The notes below the pieces were generated by a model. That model made no database searches and was not told the DNA's origin. It saw only the letters and a program-made list of their open reading frames with translations. This document shows, one piece after another, positions 13,063-64,000 of a stretch of 64,000 nucleotides of DNA. The stretch comes from Psychromonas sp. SP041 (GTDB taxonomy: Bacteria > Pseudomonadota > Gammaproteobacteria > Enterobacterales > Psychromonadaceae), in contig NZ_CBRF02000007.1 in the NCBI RefSeq assembly GCF_000470315.2, positions 62,001-126,000 of the forward strand, written 5' to 3'. Position 1 is the first letter of the stretch; every line of letters starts with the position of its first letter. Both the position numbers and the translations under genes were made by a program.

Positions 13063-13465
13063 CTTCCTTCGTGTGCTTCGTGCAGCGCAGCGACTTCGTG
13101 GTCGTTTGTTATTTTTAAAACCTTTTAAAATTCAAAACTAGATTAACCAGGAAGACTCGAAGGGAAAATAAGGTTAGAGAAAAGACGTTTATTGTTTAAT
13201 CGTCTTGTTATTTTCCTTGTCTTCCTTCGTGTTCTTCGTGCAGCGCAGCGACTTCGTGGTCGTTTTTTTTCTAAAACCTTTTCAAATAAAAAACGAATTA
13301 ACTACGAAGACAGGAAGGGCAAAGAAGGTTAGATAAAAAGGGTTATTTTTTAATAGCTTTATCATTTTTCTTGTTCTTCGTGCAACGAAGCGGCTTCGTG
13401 GTCGTTTTTATTTTTAAAACCTTTTAAAACCCAAAACAGAGTTAACCACGGAGACAGGAAGGGAG
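13063..13465. repeat. Cluster of three imperfect intergenic repeat units with internal inverted arms
   Basis: The 520-base gap between galU and murQ holds no gene. It is filled by three related units at about 13063-13165, 13221-13320 and 13371-13465. Each starts with a CTTCGTGCAGCGCAG-type segment, then CTTCGTGGTCGTTT, an ACCTTTT run, and an AACCACGAAGACAGGAAGG-type segment that is partly the reverse complement of the unit's beginning. Unit starts are about 158 and 142 bases apart. The arrangement suggests a dispersed palindromic element amplified in tandem. Confidence 0.85.
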
Positions 13466-13531
13466 GAGAAAATTAAGTAAAAGGATTTTATTACTAAATT
13501 GTACTGAATCGAGTGGTAAATAATATTGTGG

Positions 13532-15800: not shown

Positions 15801-15952
15801 TTATGCCAATGGAATTAAATAAGTGATCAGAGATTGCGCAGGAAAAATTAACACTAATAAGGAGATAGTTGTTCTCACTTCAAAACTCACAACGCAGTTA
15901 GGGGTGAGTTTAACCAGCAAGAATGATCACCTTATTAATTCTTTTAGTATTA
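15801..15952. mobile_element. MITE-like repeat, copy 1
   Basis: A 152-base non-coding element has imperfect terminal inverted repeats of about 28 bases: left end TTATGCCAATGGAATTAA through AAGTGATCA, right end TGATCACC through TTTTAGTATTA. A close second copy lies at 29867-30031. Between the ends is a segment with CTCACTTCAAAACTCACAACG. The short open frame crossing it is not a gene. Confidence 0.8.
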
Positions 15953-29504: not shown

Positions 29505-30207
29505 GTGCTTTTTCCTTAATGTGTATTAGTTTATTGTTTTCTATTTTCTATTTTAAATTCAAAGTAAATGCTAAGTAAATTATAGATGTGAATGAAATGT
29601 CTCGTTCAGATTTAATTAATTTAAACTAACTAAACTTAACTCTTCATCGCCAAATTAATGACTATAATCAATCGATAACGACAAAGCTGTATTTATTAAA
29701 TACTCTATTTATGGCATTAATATAAGGTGTTGTGCAGTAATAAAGGCAACCAAATGTCTAAAGTTTGCCCCCATTTGTCCAAATGATTGTTTTAACCAAT
29801 AAACTCTAGCGGTTATTTATTATGAGATATACCCGTTAGATATTCTTCTTTCTGCCTAGCACCTGCTTATACCAATGGAATTAAATAAGTGATCAGAGAT
29901 TGCGCAGGAAAAATTAACACTAATAAGGCGTGAGTTGTAGGAGGTAGTTGTTCTCACTTCAAAACTCACAACGCAGTTAGGGGGAATTTTAACCAGCAAG
30001 AATGATCTCCTTATTAATTCTTTTGGTATTACTGCACTGCTTGCTGAATTTTGTTCCTTGAATGCTGACGGGTATACATCTACTTTGAAAATATAATTGG
30101 TGATCGAGCAAATGTTTTTAAGATAAGTGAGAAAGAGGGAGCTTGAAGTTAGTCTGCTTACTTTAGTTATTATTCGGGACTTACCAGTTATCAAATAAAA
30201 TAAGAGG
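29505..30207. other. Intergenic region containing the second MITE-like copy
   Basis: Between the glutaredoxin and the unknown gene at 30208 I see only the MITE-like element (29867-30031). A minus-strand open frame across it is explained by the element and is not called. Confidence 0.6.
29867..30031. mobile_element. MITE-like repeat, copy 2
   Basis: A 165-base relative of the element at 15801, with the same inverted termini (TTATACCAATGGAATTAA at the left, its imperfect complement ending TTTTGGTATTA at the right). It differs mainly by an extra 13 or so bases (around GCGTGAGTTGTAGGA) in its interior. No coding capacity; mobilisation would need a transposase in trans. Confidence 0.8.
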
Positions 30208-57297: not shown

Positions 57298-57371
57298 TAA
57301 GGCGTAAAAGTAGGGTCAAGTCTTGTTTTTTTACCTTTTAACAACAAAGATCTGGACATATATGGACGCTC

Positions 57372-57771
57372 TCTCGTAGTCAAGACGAGTTAATACAGAA
57401 CACGAAAATAGTTTCATGTTCGTCATGCTTTATAATCTTAAATACCTTCTCATTAACTCGCTTGTGATGACTGACTCAATGGGTTTATTGAATAAACCGT
57501 TCTGACATATATTCGAGCTATGGATAAATACCATGCTCCTGATGAATTGCGAACCAGAATACCAATGATAAAAAATCAACCAAGCGAACTATAAGTTCGT
57601 GTCCTTTGCTGGTTTCGTTCTGGTTGGCGTGAGCCTTTTCTTTTCATCTTAAAGCGACGGTTAGAGAGAAGTTAATACTTTTTAATTAAGCACTCTCTAG
57701 CGACCTAAACACCCATTCAGGCTCATGGCCTTTGTCCACAACAAGTTTCGCTAGAGAGTAAAACGGGTTAA
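57372..57771 (-). ncRNA. Conserved non-coding segment of the IS110 element, candidate bridge/seekRNA
   Basis: This 400-base stretch between transposase stop and element end is nearly identical to 63215-63612 in the second copy. It has no reading frame but contains ordered hairpins: ACTCTCTAGCG (57692-57702) pairs with CGCTAGAGAGT (57749-57759), with a smaller AGGC/GCCT stem inside. IS110-family elements are known to encode a bridge RNA (seekRNA) that guides target choice, and in the IS1111 group it lies downstream of the transposase. The exact RNA ends and guide loops cannot be fixed by eye. Confidence 0.5.
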
Positions 57772-58800
57772 TCATTGTGTTATTTCTTTTGCTATTTGTG
57801 GCGTGTAATAACTGTTTTTTTGAAGCAACGTCCACATAATGCGTGCTAGCTTATGTGCCGTGGCAACCGCGGTGCAATTGAAGCTTTTTCGTTCTCTTAA
57901 TTGGCAAACCCATTGGTTTAATGCATCTTGCTTTTTACCTGCATGGTTAATCATCGCACGCGCACCATGAATTAATAATGTTCGTAAATACTGGTCACCT
58001 CGTTTACTGATGCCAGTCATGATGCTTTTATTACCAGAGGCAAATTGTTTCGGTGCAAGACCTAACCACACTGCAAAATCTTTCGCACTAGCAAAGGCTT
58101 GCCCGTTACCGATTGAGGCAATAAAAGCAGAGGCATTGAGATAACCGATACCAGGTATGCTTAGTACAACCTTACCTAAAGGATGTCGCTCTATTTCTGA
58201 CTTTAATTTCTTTTCAATTTCTTTAATTCGATTATTTAACAGTGCGTATTCACTATAAACATCGTTAACTAACCATCTCAATGTCTCTGATAATGATTCA
58301 TCTGAGCATAAATCAATGAGTTTTTCATTAAATCCCTTATGGCCTACTGGGAAGATAATACCAAAATCAGTGAGTACGCCGCGTAACTGATTACTTGTTG
58401 CTATTCGAGTGCCCAATAATCTTTCACGTAAACGATGCAGTATTAATGCTTCTTGTTGTGCCATGGTTTTAATAGGAACAAAACGAATAAATGGACGGCA
58501 AGAGGCTTCAAAAATAGCGAGTGTATCGTTACTGTCATTCTTATTACCACGTACAAAAGGAGTGACATGTTGAGCCGGTATTAAACCAACATTATGCCCC
58601 ATAGACTCAAAGGTACGACCCCAATAATGAGATGAATAACAAGCCTCCATCACCACACGACATTTAATTTGCATCTGCATAAATTCAATCAATTGTTGTC
58701 TGTTTAGACGCTTATTGAATAACGTTTTACCTGTGTTAGTAAATCCCATTACTTGAAAAACATGCTTTGCTAGGTCAATTGATATTGTGCTAAGTTTCAT
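57772..58800 (-). CDS. IS110-family DEDD transposase
   Basis: This 342-residue transposase has an N-terminal RuvC-like DEDD domain with Asp9 (SIDLAKHVFQV), Glu52 (VMEACYSSHYWG), Asp89 and Asp92 (KNDSND), and a C-terminal Tnp_20 domain containing SIPGIGYLNA, ASIGNGQAF and SGNKSIMTGISKRG, where the conserved catalytic Ser lies. Both halves look intact. The C-terminal part is repeated, slightly diverged, in the copy at the window end. Confidence 0.95.
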   Translation of the reverse strand: MKLSTISIDLAKHVFQVMGFTNTGKTLFNKRLNRQQLIEFMQMQIKCRVVMEACYSSHYWGRTFESMGHNVGLIPAQHVTPFVRGNKNDSNDTLAIFEASCRPFIRFVPIKTMAQQEALILHRLRERLLGTRIATSNQLRGVLTDFGIIFPVGHKGFNEKLIDLCSDESLSETLRWLVNDVYSEYALLNNRIKEIEKKLKSEIERHPLGKVVLSIPGIGYLNASAFIASIGNGQAFASAKDFAVWLGLAPKQFASGNKSIMTGISKRGDQYLRTLLIHGARAMINHAGKKQDALNQWVCQLRERKSFNCTAVATAHKLARIMWTLLQKNSYYTPQIAKEITQ

Positions 58801-58958
58801 GATGGACGCTCCTTAAGTTAACTATTGATATTACATTAGTTTGGCGCATTGACGCCGTATTGGGGAGCGTCCATCTCATCACCCATCTATTTGAATAATT
58901 GCCATCGTTAAACTATCTTTTATAAATGCGTGTTTTTGCATTTAGGAGGTAGTTTATT

Positions 58959-59952
58959 ATGACTCAATCTCGCCAATCACAAGTATCATTATCTGATACA
59001 CCTTATTACCACTGTATTTCACGTTGTGTTCGTAGAGCTTACTTATGTGGTGAAGATAAATACACCGAAAAATCCTTTGAACATCGCCGCCAGTGGGTTG
59101 TTGAGCGAATGCATTACCTTTAATATTGATATCTGCGCTTACGCTATCATGTCCAACCATTATCATCTCGTATTGCACATAGATGAGCAACATAATGAAA
59201 GCCTAACGCATGAAGAAGTTTGTGAGCGTTGGTGTCAGCTCTATTCGACACCTGTATTAGTTGAGCGTTGGCAAAACGAACAAACCACCTCAGAAGCCGA
59301 AAATAAAGCCGCATTAACCATTATTAATGGATGGAGAGGGCGATTAGCTGATATTTCATGGTTTATGCGCTGTTTAAATGAATTCATTGCGCGAAAAGCG
59401 AATAAAGAAGATGAATGTTCAGGGCGTTTCTGGGAAGGACGTTTTAAGTCTCAAGCTTTATTGGATGAAGATGCACTATTAACCTGCATGGCTTATGTCG
59501 ACCTAAATCCAATTCGCGCCAAAATGGCAGCTAGCGTTGAAACATCAGAATATACCTCCGCTTATGAGCGCCTATTACCTTGCAAAAAAGCTGGTGTTGC
59601 TCAACCACAAGAAAAACCGTCAGATTTATATGATAAGAAACCACTGTTTGGCTTTATTGGTGATGAAATTCAAAATGATACGCAGGGTATTCCATTTTCA
59701 CTATTAGATTACATCGAGCTTGTCGATTGGAGTGGCCGTATTATTCGAGAAGATAAACGGGGGGCTATTTCAAGCCAACGTCCAAGAATACTCTCCACTC
59801 TTGGTTTAGATAATGATACTTGGTTATCACTAGCTAGTAGTTTTGGAAAAGATTATCACGGAGCGGTGGGCTCTTTAGAAGCATTAGCTGCTTATGCAGG
59901 TAACACAGGCAAACGTTGGATAGCCAGTAAAAATCAATTACGACTGCATTAA
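58959..59952 (+). pseudogene. REP-associated tyrosine (Y1) transposase, frameshifted
   Basis: A start at 58959 with GGAGGT upstream opens MTQSRQSQVSLSDTPYYHC and reads 49 codons through RRAYLCGED to ERMHYL before a TAA at 59121. The rest of the protein continues in the next frame as FNIDICAYAIMSNHYHLVLH with the HUH motif (HYH), then AYVDLNPIRA with the catalytic Tyr. The join needs a single frame change near 59115-59125, and about three residues usual at that point are missing, so a small deletion is likely. Y1/RAYT enzymes mobilise REP-type palindromes. Confidence 0.85.
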
Positions 59953-60211: not shown

Positions 60212-61762
60212 TTGATTAACTCATTTGTTGATCCGCTTCATTCTACAGGATTAAAAACGAATCCAAATTACTTAAATGATTATAAGCAATGGATAGAAGA
60301 CTACGAAAAAGCATTACATTACAGCAAAGTTAAAAATCCTGCCGCAGCAAAGAAGGCAAATGCAGAATTATTAAAGTTAAAAGCGAATAAACCTTGGGTT
60401 ATTTTGTTAAATAGTGATGATATAATGTCAACGCATCGCGTTAAACAAGTTGAGCAAATAAATCATTTGTTAAATAAAACCGGAGAGGTAGTGAAAACCG
60501 GTATTGTGTGGGGCGGAGTTGTTTTAAACCTTTGGAATGTTGCAGAAACTGAAATTCCAAATGAATTGAGTTTTGATTTTAAAAAAAATCCTGATTCAGC
60601 CAAAAAAACCTACGCTTATGTATCAAATATGGCTTATTTAGCTCAATCTATTACAGGGCTTTTTTCTAGCGCTGAAGACAACCTTATTAAGATGGTTACT
60701 GAAAATGAAAGTATCAATAAAGGGAGAGGATTCTATAAAGTAACTGCTGAACTGCGTGAGGGAGATAAAATATTATTAAGACTTTCACTAGCTGAAGCTA
60801 AAGTAGCTTATGGAAAAACAACGGGTGCAGCGCTTTATAAATTGATAAAGAGTTTTCGATTATTTATTGGAGTACTAGGTGTATTTACTGTAATTGCAAC
60901 TGCGCTTGAAGTTGTTCCTTTATATCATAAATTGACTGGCTCAAATAAACAACGTTTAAATAACATTGAATATGGTTTAACCACTATTAAAGCAGCCTCT
61001 GTTGGAGTTATGCTGCTAGGTGGCGTGTATCAGGGATTATTGTATTTTAGAGTTTTTGCTGGTTTCGCTTGGGCAGGTCCTGTTTTAGCGATTGCCGGGA
61101 TTGTTTATTTGGCGGTTACTCTCGCTTTACTTTATTATTCTCGTACGGATATAGACTTATGGCTGAATAACTGTCGGTTTGGTAAAAAACCTAATAGTAA
61201 CTGGGTAAACGCTCCTTTATTAGAGTTACAAAAATTACAAGATGTTTTATTAGTGCCAAGTGTTTACGCAAAATCCCTCATCGTATTAAGTGCACCTGAT
61301 ACAATAGACAAGAATACACAACCTGAAGATTTTAAGATGGATACAACGGGAACTTGGTTAATCTTATATCTTCCTGGTGATGATTGGTTAATTGATATAG
61401 CAGAATTTAATAATGAAAAATTTGTCCTTAATAGAAAAATTATTAATAGTTTTCCTCGTTATTTAACCAAATCACAATATGAGTCAATTCAAGAAAATGG
61501 TTTTCCTCAATCTTTCTCTGAACCCATTCCTGGTGGAAGTAGTTCAGAGAATTCTGGCTTGTATTTATTTGGCTTACCTTTTGAGAAAAATAACAGTAAA
61601 CTTTTAATTAAATTACAACAATTGAGTAGTCATAAATCTCGAGTATATGAAGTTAAGATGAATTTAACTGGGAAAGTATTGACTGAAACAAAGGTACCCT
61701 TTCCAGAAGGGCCGGGACCTATTAGTATGAATCTGATCCCAATCTCCAACAATCATAGTTAA
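60212..61762 (+). CDS. VasX/BTH_I2691-like type VI effector, C-terminal portion (5' end probably lost)
   Basis: At 516 residues this is about half the length of VasX-type effectors. A central block of hydrophobic helices (about 210-235, 255-275, 283-312) is followed by DIDLWLNNCRFGKKPNSNWV, a segment I associate with the C-terminal region of BTH_I2691/VasX-family membrane-disrupting effectors, and then a soluble beta-rich domain. The N-terminal MIX/PH-like part is missing. The only start is a TTG at 60212 with no ribosome-binding site, and the frame is open upstream to 60128. A TsiV2-like immunity gene and a PAAR gene follow. Assignment is by resemblance. Confidence 0.6.
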   Translation: MINSFVDPLHSTGLKTNPNYLNDYKQWIEDYEKALHYSKVKNPAAAKKANAELLKLKANKPWVILLNSDDIMSTHRVKQVEQINHLLNKTGEVVKTGIVWGGVVLNLWNVAETEIPNELSFDFKKNPDSAKKTYAYVSNMAYLAQSITGLFSSAEDNLIKMVTENESINKGRGFYKVTAELREGDKILLRLSLAEAKVAYGKTTGAALYKLIKSFRLFIGVLGVFTVIATALEVVPLYHKLTGSNKQRLNNIEYGLTTIKAASVGVMLLGGVYQGLLYFRVFAGFAWAGPVLAIAGIVYLAVTLALLYYSRTDIDLWLNNCRFGKKPNSNWVNAPLLELQKLQDVLLVPSVYAKSLIVLSAPDTIDKNTQPEDFKMDTTGTWLILYLPGDDWLIDIAEFNNEKFVLNRKIINSFPRYLTKSQYESIQENGFPQSFSEPIPGGSSSENSGLYLFGLPFEKNNSKLLIKLQQLSSHKSRVYEVKMNLTGKVLTETKVPFPEGPGPISMNLIPISNNHS

Positions 61763-62660: not shown

Positions 62661-62948
62661 ATGGGTAAACCAGCAGCAACTATTTCAAGTTATCACATGT
62701 GCCCCAACAAAACGGCTAAAAAACCACACGTGGGTGGGCCTATTGTTGCAGGTGCGGCTAATGTATTCATTGGCGGTTTACCAGTGGCATTAATTGGTGA
62801 TAAATGTGTGTGTGAAGGACCCCCTGATGCAATTGCTGCAGGCTCAGCCACTGTCACTGTTAATGGTAAAGGCATCGCGCGTTTAGGTGATGCTACCGTT
62901 CATGGTGGTAAAATCATGGAAGGTAATCCAACTGTCTTGGTGGGTTAA
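62661..62948 (+). CDS. PAAR-domain spike-tip protein
   Basis: This 95-residue protein is a stand-alone PAAR domain: it begins MGKPAATISSYHMCPNK and has the repeated glycine-rich beta turns FIGGLPVALIGDKC, AGSATVTVNGKGIARLGD and EGNPTVLVG. PAAR proteins sharpen the VgrG spike of type VI secretion systems and carry effectors. Cys and His residues are in the expected zinc-binding places. AGGAAGA gives a strong ribosome-binding site. No VgrG, Hcp or sheath gene is present in the window. Confidence 0.92.
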   Translation: MGKPAATISSYHMCPNKTAKKPHVGGPIVAGAANVFIGGLPVALIGDKCVCEGPPDAIAAGSATVTVNGKGIARLGDATVHGGKIMEGNPTVLVG

Positions 62949-63027
62949 ACTAAATAATGATTATTCTTACTGACACTTGTCAAGGTAACTTTGTCTGTTG
63001 TACGCCTGTTGTTTGGACGTGCTTTCA

Positions 63028-63190
63028 ATGAGCTTATTAACTGAATTGCTTGCGCAGCGCGAGCAATTTATTAACGCCGATTATGCATACAAAAGTAACG
63101 TTGATAAAAACCGATTACAGTTATTAGCTTGTGCGCGTTTACTTGCTAAGAAAAATCACCCTTTCTTTGCTGAGACTCAACCAAGAAAAA
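63028..63190 (+). pseudogene. 5' fragment of a gene cut by the second IS110 copy
   Basis: An ATG at 63028 opens MSLLTELLAQREQFINADYA and reads about 55 residues of native sequence, up to ETQPRKK, before it enters the IS110 end (AGATCTGGACATAT from 63190) and stops at 63222 inside the element. A short frame of 24 codons from 62957 (MIILTDTCQGNFVCC) ends overlapping this ATG (ATGA), and might be a coupled leader or the remains of the true start. The product is not recognised. Its position behind PAAR suggests a type VI accessory or effector gene. Confidence 0.65.
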
Positions 63191-63214
63191 AGATCTGGAC
63201 ATATATGGACGCTC

Positions 63215-63612
63215 TCTCGTAGTCAAGACGAGTTGATAGAGAACACGAAAATAGTTCCATGTTCGTCATGCTTTATAATCTTAAATACCTTCTCATTAAC
63301 TCGCTTGTGATGACTGACTCAATGGGTTTATTGAATAAACCGTTCTGACATATATTCGAGCTATGGATAAATACCATGCTCCTGATGAGTTGCGAACCAG
63401 AATACCAATGATAAAAAATCAACCAAGCGAACTATAAGTTCGTGTCCTTTGCTGGTTTCGTTCTGGTTGGCGTGAGCCTTTTCTTTTCATCTTAAAGCGA
63501 CGGTTAGAGAAGTTAATACTTTTTAATTAAGCACTCTCTAGCGACCTAAACAGCCATTCAGGCTCATGGCCTTTGTCCAGAGCAGGTTTCGCTAGATAGT
63601 AAAACGGGTGAA
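63215..63612 (-). ncRNA. Candidate bridge/seekRNA segment of the second IS110 copy
   Basis: Counterpart of 57372-57771. The 11-bp stem arms are kept except for one mismatch in the right arm (CGCTAGATAGT). Conservation of a non-coding segment between copies supports a functional RNA. Confidence 0.45.
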
Positions 63613-64000
63613 TCATTGTGTTATTTCTTTTGCTATTTGTGGCGTGTAATAACTGTGTTTTTGAAGCAATGTCCACATAATGCGAGCCAATTTATGTGCA
63701 GTAGCAACGGCTGTACAATTGAAGCTTTTTCGCTCTCTTAATTGGCAAACCCATTGGTTTAACGCATCTTGCTTTTTACCGGCAGTATTAACGACGGCAC
63801 GCGCACCATGAATAAGCATTTTTCGTAAATATCCATCACCACGCTTACTGATGCCTGTCATGATACTCTTATTACCAGAGGCAAATTGTTTCGGTGTAAG
63901 ACCTAACCACACTGCAAAATCTTTCGCACTAGCAAAGGCTTGCCCGTTACCGATTGAGGCAATAAAAGCAGAGGCATTGAGATAACCGATACCAGGTATG
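63613..64000 (-). CDS. IS110-family transposase, C-terminal part (cut by window edge)
   Basis: The visible 129 codons match the C-terminal third of the transposase at 57772, from IPGIGYLNASAF to the same EITQ end, with substitutions such as WLGLTPKQF for WLGLAPKQF and GDGYLRKML for GDQYLRTLL. The N-terminal DEDD half is outside the window. Confidence 0.92.
   Translation of the reverse strand, partial: IPGIGYLNASAFIASIGNGQAFASAKDFAVWLGLTPKQFASGNKSIMTGISKRGDGYLRKMLIHGARAVVNTAGKKQDALNQWVCQLRERKSFNCTAVATAHKLARIMWTLLQKHSYYTPQIAKEITQ

Follow-up and report, generated by a model that had tools for sequence, protein, structure and literature searches.

Two target loops in the probable guide RNA of an IS1111-group element from Psychromonas sp. 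SP041

Described systems and the window element

It has been reported that ISEc11, ISKpn4 and ISPa11, insertion sequences (IS) of the IS1111 group, carry a seekRNA (Siddiquee et al. 2024, PMC11187229). The element described here lies in a stretch of 64,000 nucleotides from Psychromonas sp. SP041 (contig NZ_CBRF02000007.1, positions 62,001 to 126,000), hereafter the window, and is very probably an IS1111-group IS whose non-coding region (NCR) encodes an RNA that directs the transposase to its insertion site, with a target loop that is duplicated in this clade. As described in the available sections of the report, ISEc11, ISKpn4 and ISPa11 share with it the subterminal repeats with 7/3-bp extensions, an NCR downstream of the gene, a top-strand guide placed before the bottom-strand guide and natural re-direction of guides; they differ in having one target-matching pair per element, whereas the window element has two target loops, and second, two or tandem seekRNAs are absent from the wording of PMC11187229. 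The excerpts available for IS621 and the IS110 bridge RNA (Durrant et al. 2024, PMC11208160) likewise describe a target and a donor loop with a core dinucleotide inside all four guides, but there the bridge RNA lies upstream of the gene, with one target loop and short end repeats. ISPpu9, in the available part of its description (Gomez-Garcia et al. 2021, PMC8450116), is also a DEDD element in REP-type repeats with a folded leader likely covering the ribosome site, but belongs to the IS110/IS492 family, lacks clear terminal repeats and has an antisense RNA, Asr9 (no search for such an RNA was made here). Duplicated target loops in one bridge RNA or seekRNA were not found described in the literature searched, outside which lie subscription papers and preprints; novelty is not proven.

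Copy 1 of the element is complete and occupies 57359-58881 (1,523 bp; minus strand, as for all element features below). Its transposase gene (57772-58800) encodes 342 amino acids with DEDD and Transposase_20 domains, within the size of about 330-350 amino acids of the IS1111 group, and scores 82.2 bits against PF02371 (cut-off 21.3), 45.6 against PF01548 (29) and 306.2 against NF033542 (140). The left end (58864-58881) consists of a repeat (58864-58874) and the 7-bp extension TGATGAG (58875-58881); the right subterminal repeat (57362-57371) is followed outward by the 3-bp extension ATA (57359-57361). Read on the transposase strand, the ends are TGATGAG + ATGGACGCTCC and GAGCGTCCAT + ATA. The part before the gene measures 81 bp, while the NCR downstream of it (57359-57771) measures 413 bp. 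Since inverted subterminal repeats extended by 7 bp on the left and 3 bp on the right, together with a downstream NCR, are the IS1111 rule (PMC11187229), the element is placed in that group; the traits of the IS110 group in the narrow sense, an upstream NCR and no long subterminal repeats, are absent. The original prediction of an IS110 element holds at superfamily level and is refined to the IS1111 group.

The ends are fixed by an empty target in the same genome, AAGATCTGGACACCCATCTATTTG in L150, which equals the joined flanks of copy 1 with nothing lost or gained and lies at the extreme 5' end of an element of RAYT-like (Y1) type; further empty sites occur in L046 and L151 of genome G016. 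The right flank of the target (57346-57358, with the TG/CA core at 57357-57358) has the same sequence in empty RAYT-like elements, and the left flank (58882-58893) is the 5' part of such an element. The sequence AAAGATCTGGACATAT, found at the left end of both window copies (57346-57361 and 63189-63204), had been proposed as the recognised target core. With the element boundary at 57359, the bases 57346-57358 lie outside the element and hold the TG/CA core together with the target's right half, and only the last three, TAT (57359-57361), are the element's own.

A third copy of the end repeat (58801-58812) stands directly 5' of the transposase ATG, and in the predicted fold of 58801-58875 its pairing with the left-end repeat would cover the AAGGAG ribosome site. 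A near-consensus promoter, TTGACT-17-TATGAT, would be created across a predicted circle junction by the joining of 57378-57383 with 58875-58881. The linear element gave four promoter-like sites where 5.5 are expected, and no terminator, in a promoter and terminator scan.

The probable guide RNA region and its fit to ends and flanks

Target loop A (57692-57759) is a free-standing hairpin directly after the gene, with an 11-bp stem and the guides GTTGTGGACA (57733-57742) and ATGGGTG (57710-57716). Target loop B (57552-57625) carries the guides AGCAAAGGACA (57600-57610) and CTTGGTTG (57577-57584) and adjoins the donor loop, which is the position of the loop in single-loop relatives such as L020, L021 and L080; loop A is additional to that loop. 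In both target loops, the first guide is complementary to the core and right flank and the second is identical to the left flank and core, so that both strands have a guide and the top-strand guide comes first, as in the IS1111 group. The donor loop (57506-57546) is built like the target loops, for the element ends, with GAATATATG (57506-57514) for the right end and TTCATCA (57540-57546), one base off, for the left. The 11-bp hairpin noted in the original prediction is a target loop, one of two. Loop B was also tried as a donor loop and dropped; in Rheinheimera it shares its left-flank guide with loop A, and a conserved ATATATG segment fits the element end.

The loop A hairpin folds better than all of 200 dinucleotide shuffles (z -3.6), with a mean z of -3.5 over 18 sequences, and the whole NCR folds better than all of 100 (z -3.7). 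The outer stem of loop A, picked by eye from single folds and then compared, is retained across 17 sequences with 13 different 5' arms, L053 pairing at only 8 of 12 positions; RNAalifold on a MAFFT alignment of 15 loop-A sequences recovered only the inner 4-bp hairpin. The covariance-model check proposed at the outset gave nothing usable: Rfam 15 had no match in the window at gathering score, and only two chance-level matches in the element at E up to 5.

Searches at the level of order, class and family gave relatives in 59 of 394 genomes at E 1e-60 and in 1 of 369, 4 of 246 and 10 of 152 at 1e-95; named genomes, repeated copies and plasmid records supplied others. The class-wide draw of 369 genomes at 1e-95 gave the window's own genome as the sole match, and a search of IMG/VR gave no relative. 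The guide test covered 41 insertions at first and 48 after the rows of Pseudoalteromonas sp. NC201 and L155 were added, with 20 guide sets. Rows were omitted for lying in tandem beside L085 (L086 and L087), for sharing the sites of L016 and L017 (L078 and L081), for loss of the left side (L037, L040, copy 2 of the window and the smaller fragments from G000, G016, G004 and G015), for a right or left end that was not found, fused or truncated (L094, L097, L098, L107), as single-loop relatives (L019, L020, L021, L080), or as relatives under about 49% identity; L051 was retained despite its right-end core TA.

A comparison of flanks with loops, of the kind that the original prediction had called for, came out in its favour. 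Of 588 positions, 409 agree with the own guides and 335 +/- 16 with swapped ones, and none of 20,000 shuffles did as well, although permutation p values are too lenient here because the guide sets are related to one another. Each loop taken singly also fits its own flanks better (loop A 363 against 295, loop B 365 against 309). At the first four positions of the right flank, own guides fit 159 of 192 against 116 +/- 8; on the left flank the values are 198 of 252 against 179 +/- 8 (p 0.008). Own guides ranked first in 12 of the 20 sets. The donor loop likewise co-varies with the right end of its element: a 7-nt match is present in 27 of 39 elements, and the mean match of 5.95 nt exceeds both the 5.31 +/- 0.15 nt of swapped NCRs and all 500 shuffles (highest 5.74), with the variant ends CTATG, AGATG and GTATG all matched (L056, L057, L074, L066). 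Because the loops fit both flank strands as well as the right end of the element itself, and change in step with these sequences among the relatives, the predicted bridge/seekRNA-type region of an IS110-superfamily element is borne out.

Several observations pull the other way. The loops were assigned by eye, and the segment of loop B in the window folds at chance level (z -1.1, 29 of 200 shuffles as good). In eight of the 20 sets the own guides are not first (seven rank 2nd to 5th, L096 8th), and the six NC201 insertions, added last, rank their own guides 4th of 20, behind those of G874 in first place. The right-end match is 5 nt or less in 12 of 39 elements, and the left guide of the donor loop was not above shuffles in an exact-match test (4.38 against 4.73).

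For the mechanism, it is proposed that transcription would start at the promoter created by end joining in a circle and run through the gene into the NCR, and that the RNA, once processed, would act in the cell by pairing. Around the TG core, the target loops would base-pair with one strand of the right flank and with the opposite strand of the left flank, and the donor loop would pair with the joined element ends; strand exchange by the transposase would then insert the element in a single orientation, in this case into RAYT-like Y1 elements at their 5' tip. In the clade with the duplicated target loop, A is the self-contained hairpin that directly follows the gene, and B keeps the customary position next to the donor loop.

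Possible use and origin of the two target loops

Two target loops are present in the window element and its relatives, 21 of the 39 transposase rows compared; the remaining 18, a selection of the single-loop rows fetched, have one. The loop labels were given by eye. In the transposase tree, made by a quick method with SH-aLRT support only, these rows require two changes, and the simplest account is one gain and one loss (in L019) of the second loop within a branch of 99% SH-aLRT support. Two single-loop elements look like fusions of loops A and B when compared with their kin: the 5' half of L098 agrees with A at 30 of 32 positions and with B at 23 of 36, its 3' half with B at 50 of 64 and with A at 30 of 63; for L019 the corresponding values are 21 of 30 (A) and 12 of 28 (B), then 40 of 58 (B) and 28 of 59 (A).

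How far both loops work is the point on which two readings divide. It is an even matter whether each element has one working target loop, the other being a relic of duplication whose fit to the flanks is inherited. In favour of this account, the test for a gain in fit from the second loop is weak (p 0.16 and 0.023; with the NC201 set 0.06, 0.018, 0.25 and 0.34, by definition used); of the 13 non-core positions at the insertion of copy 1, 10 agree with loop A and 6 with loop B; and six of the 11 sites in genome G311 (L085, L089, L113, L116, L121, L122) fit both loops equally well at the first five positions of the right flank. It leaves unexplained that each loop alone fits its own flanks better than swapped ones, and that, among the 76 cases in which A and B differ (41 insertions), the flank base agrees with A in 42, with B in 25 and with neither in 9, the 67 agreements exceeding those obtained when guides are swapped (p 0.0001). 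Nor does it explain G311, where 13 copies with one identical 409-bp NCR occupy 11 separate sites and divide into two target classes: TCT on the right goes with ATGG on the left in 5 of 5 occupied sites, and TCC with GTGG in 5 of 6 (Fisher p 0.015). Of the 5 insertions that could be scored on both sides, 4 show the same preference left and right. These comparisons suggest the use of both loops by one element. We put forward, tentatively and as the less favoured of the two readings, a natural dual-guide IS, in which loop A would be a stand-alone target RNA working with the donor loop of the other RNA (a natural split bridge RNA), the element would have two target classes, and recombination between loops would give new guides.

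A duplicated loop would offer a possible route by which RNA-guided IS could switch to another target without first losing the old one: while one copy drifts, the other could hold the existing target, and a fusion of the kind suggested by L019 and L098 could then yield a single loop with new guides. Provided that both loops work, these elements would be ready-made two-target systems and loop A a minimal target RNA separate from the donor loop. Material for a direct test is at hand in the 13 identical-NCR copies of G311 and in the six copies of Pseudoalteromonas sp. NC201.

Copy 2, the RAYT-like elements and other features

Copy 2 (63202-64000) continues beyond the window and is a truncated fossil with altered loop-A guides. 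The two near-identical non-coding stretches with an 11-bp hairpin were correctly noticed in the original prediction: the stretches are 97% identical across 432 bases, and in copy 1 the hairpin is a perfect inverted repeat (57692-57702 / 57749-57759). Direct repeats of 300 nt between the copies are 98% and 91% identical, the second extending into the gene, and the transposase parts are 92% identical over 198 amino acids. Of the two IS110 copies then named, the first is complete, while the second lacks the first 144 transposase residues and the left end; its hairpin (z -3.1, 1 of 200 shuffles as good) has one mismatch in the inverted repeat. Its loop A (63533-63600) has the guides GCTCTGGACA and ATGGCTG. 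The match of the loop-A guide to the shared right flank TCCAGATC, counted from the core, is six bases in copy 2 and four in copy 1; the left guide has GGCTG in copy 2 and GGGTG in copy 1, and a GGCTG target is present in the same genome at L039. The proposed use of the two copies as a natural test of guide changes stands in that the loop-A guides do differ, but the window pair is only half of such a test because copy 2 has lost its left flank; the relatives supply the rest.

The left part is also lost in fragments L037-L039 and L041-L045, which bears on a further explanation for the flank that both copies have in common and for the abundance of partial copies: a RAYT-like element would have carried an old insertion along, with no repeated guided insertion. 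The identical right flank on both window copies accords with it, as do the partial copies of the genus, in which the right end is retained but the left is missing, several of them lying beside further RAYT 5' ends, and the existence of arrays of truncated RAYT copies. As a general account it is improbable, leaving unexplained the exact ends with an empty site, the differing flanks in G311 and NC201 and the co-variation of guides; such a process may still be the source of the fossils, copy 2 included. Very unlikely indeed is the view that the hairpins fold by chance or for regulation and do not act as guides, with which the lack of an Rfam match agrees but neither the guide-flank fit beyond 20,000 shuffles nor the stems retained despite sequence change does. 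The guided insertion of a two-loop IS1111-group element remains the preferred explanation.

The RAYT-like gene beside copy 1, downstream of the target (58959-59952, plus strand), has a disrupted reading frame, with a stop after 54 codons in the first frame. The repeated element of the left flank, partial matches included, has 10 matches in G000, 12 in G016 and none in G004, a genome of the same genus as that of the window (the genus holding Psychromonas hadalis). Its intact gene encodes a 335-amino-acid Y1/RAYT-like protein, the intact relative L150 scoring below both curated cut-offs (NF047646 44.7 bits, cut-off 80; PF01797 21.4 bits, cut-off 23). Tandem arrays of 3'-truncated RAYT-like copies occur in L151 of G016 (1200-1760), where the array ends in a full-length copy, and in L046 (1-920); the copies each begin at about AGATCTGGACACCC, one of them with GGGCACCC. 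Short direct repeats often surround target sites (the L017 flanks; L045 2129-2172; L084; L089), TAGTGGATGTCCTTTTTTCTC occurring several times around L017.

Between the two IS copies, 60212-61762 gives a weak match to a type VI secretion system (T6SS) effector family (NF041559, 37 bits, cut-off 150). A small open reading frame at 62662-62949, also between the copies, is presumably PAAR-like, judged by eye from a motif. Elsewhere in the window, three 98-base direct repeats with a spacing of 144-155 lie at 13106-13502, and a repeat pair of 94% identity, 14 kb apart, is found at 15801-15952 and 29867-30031.
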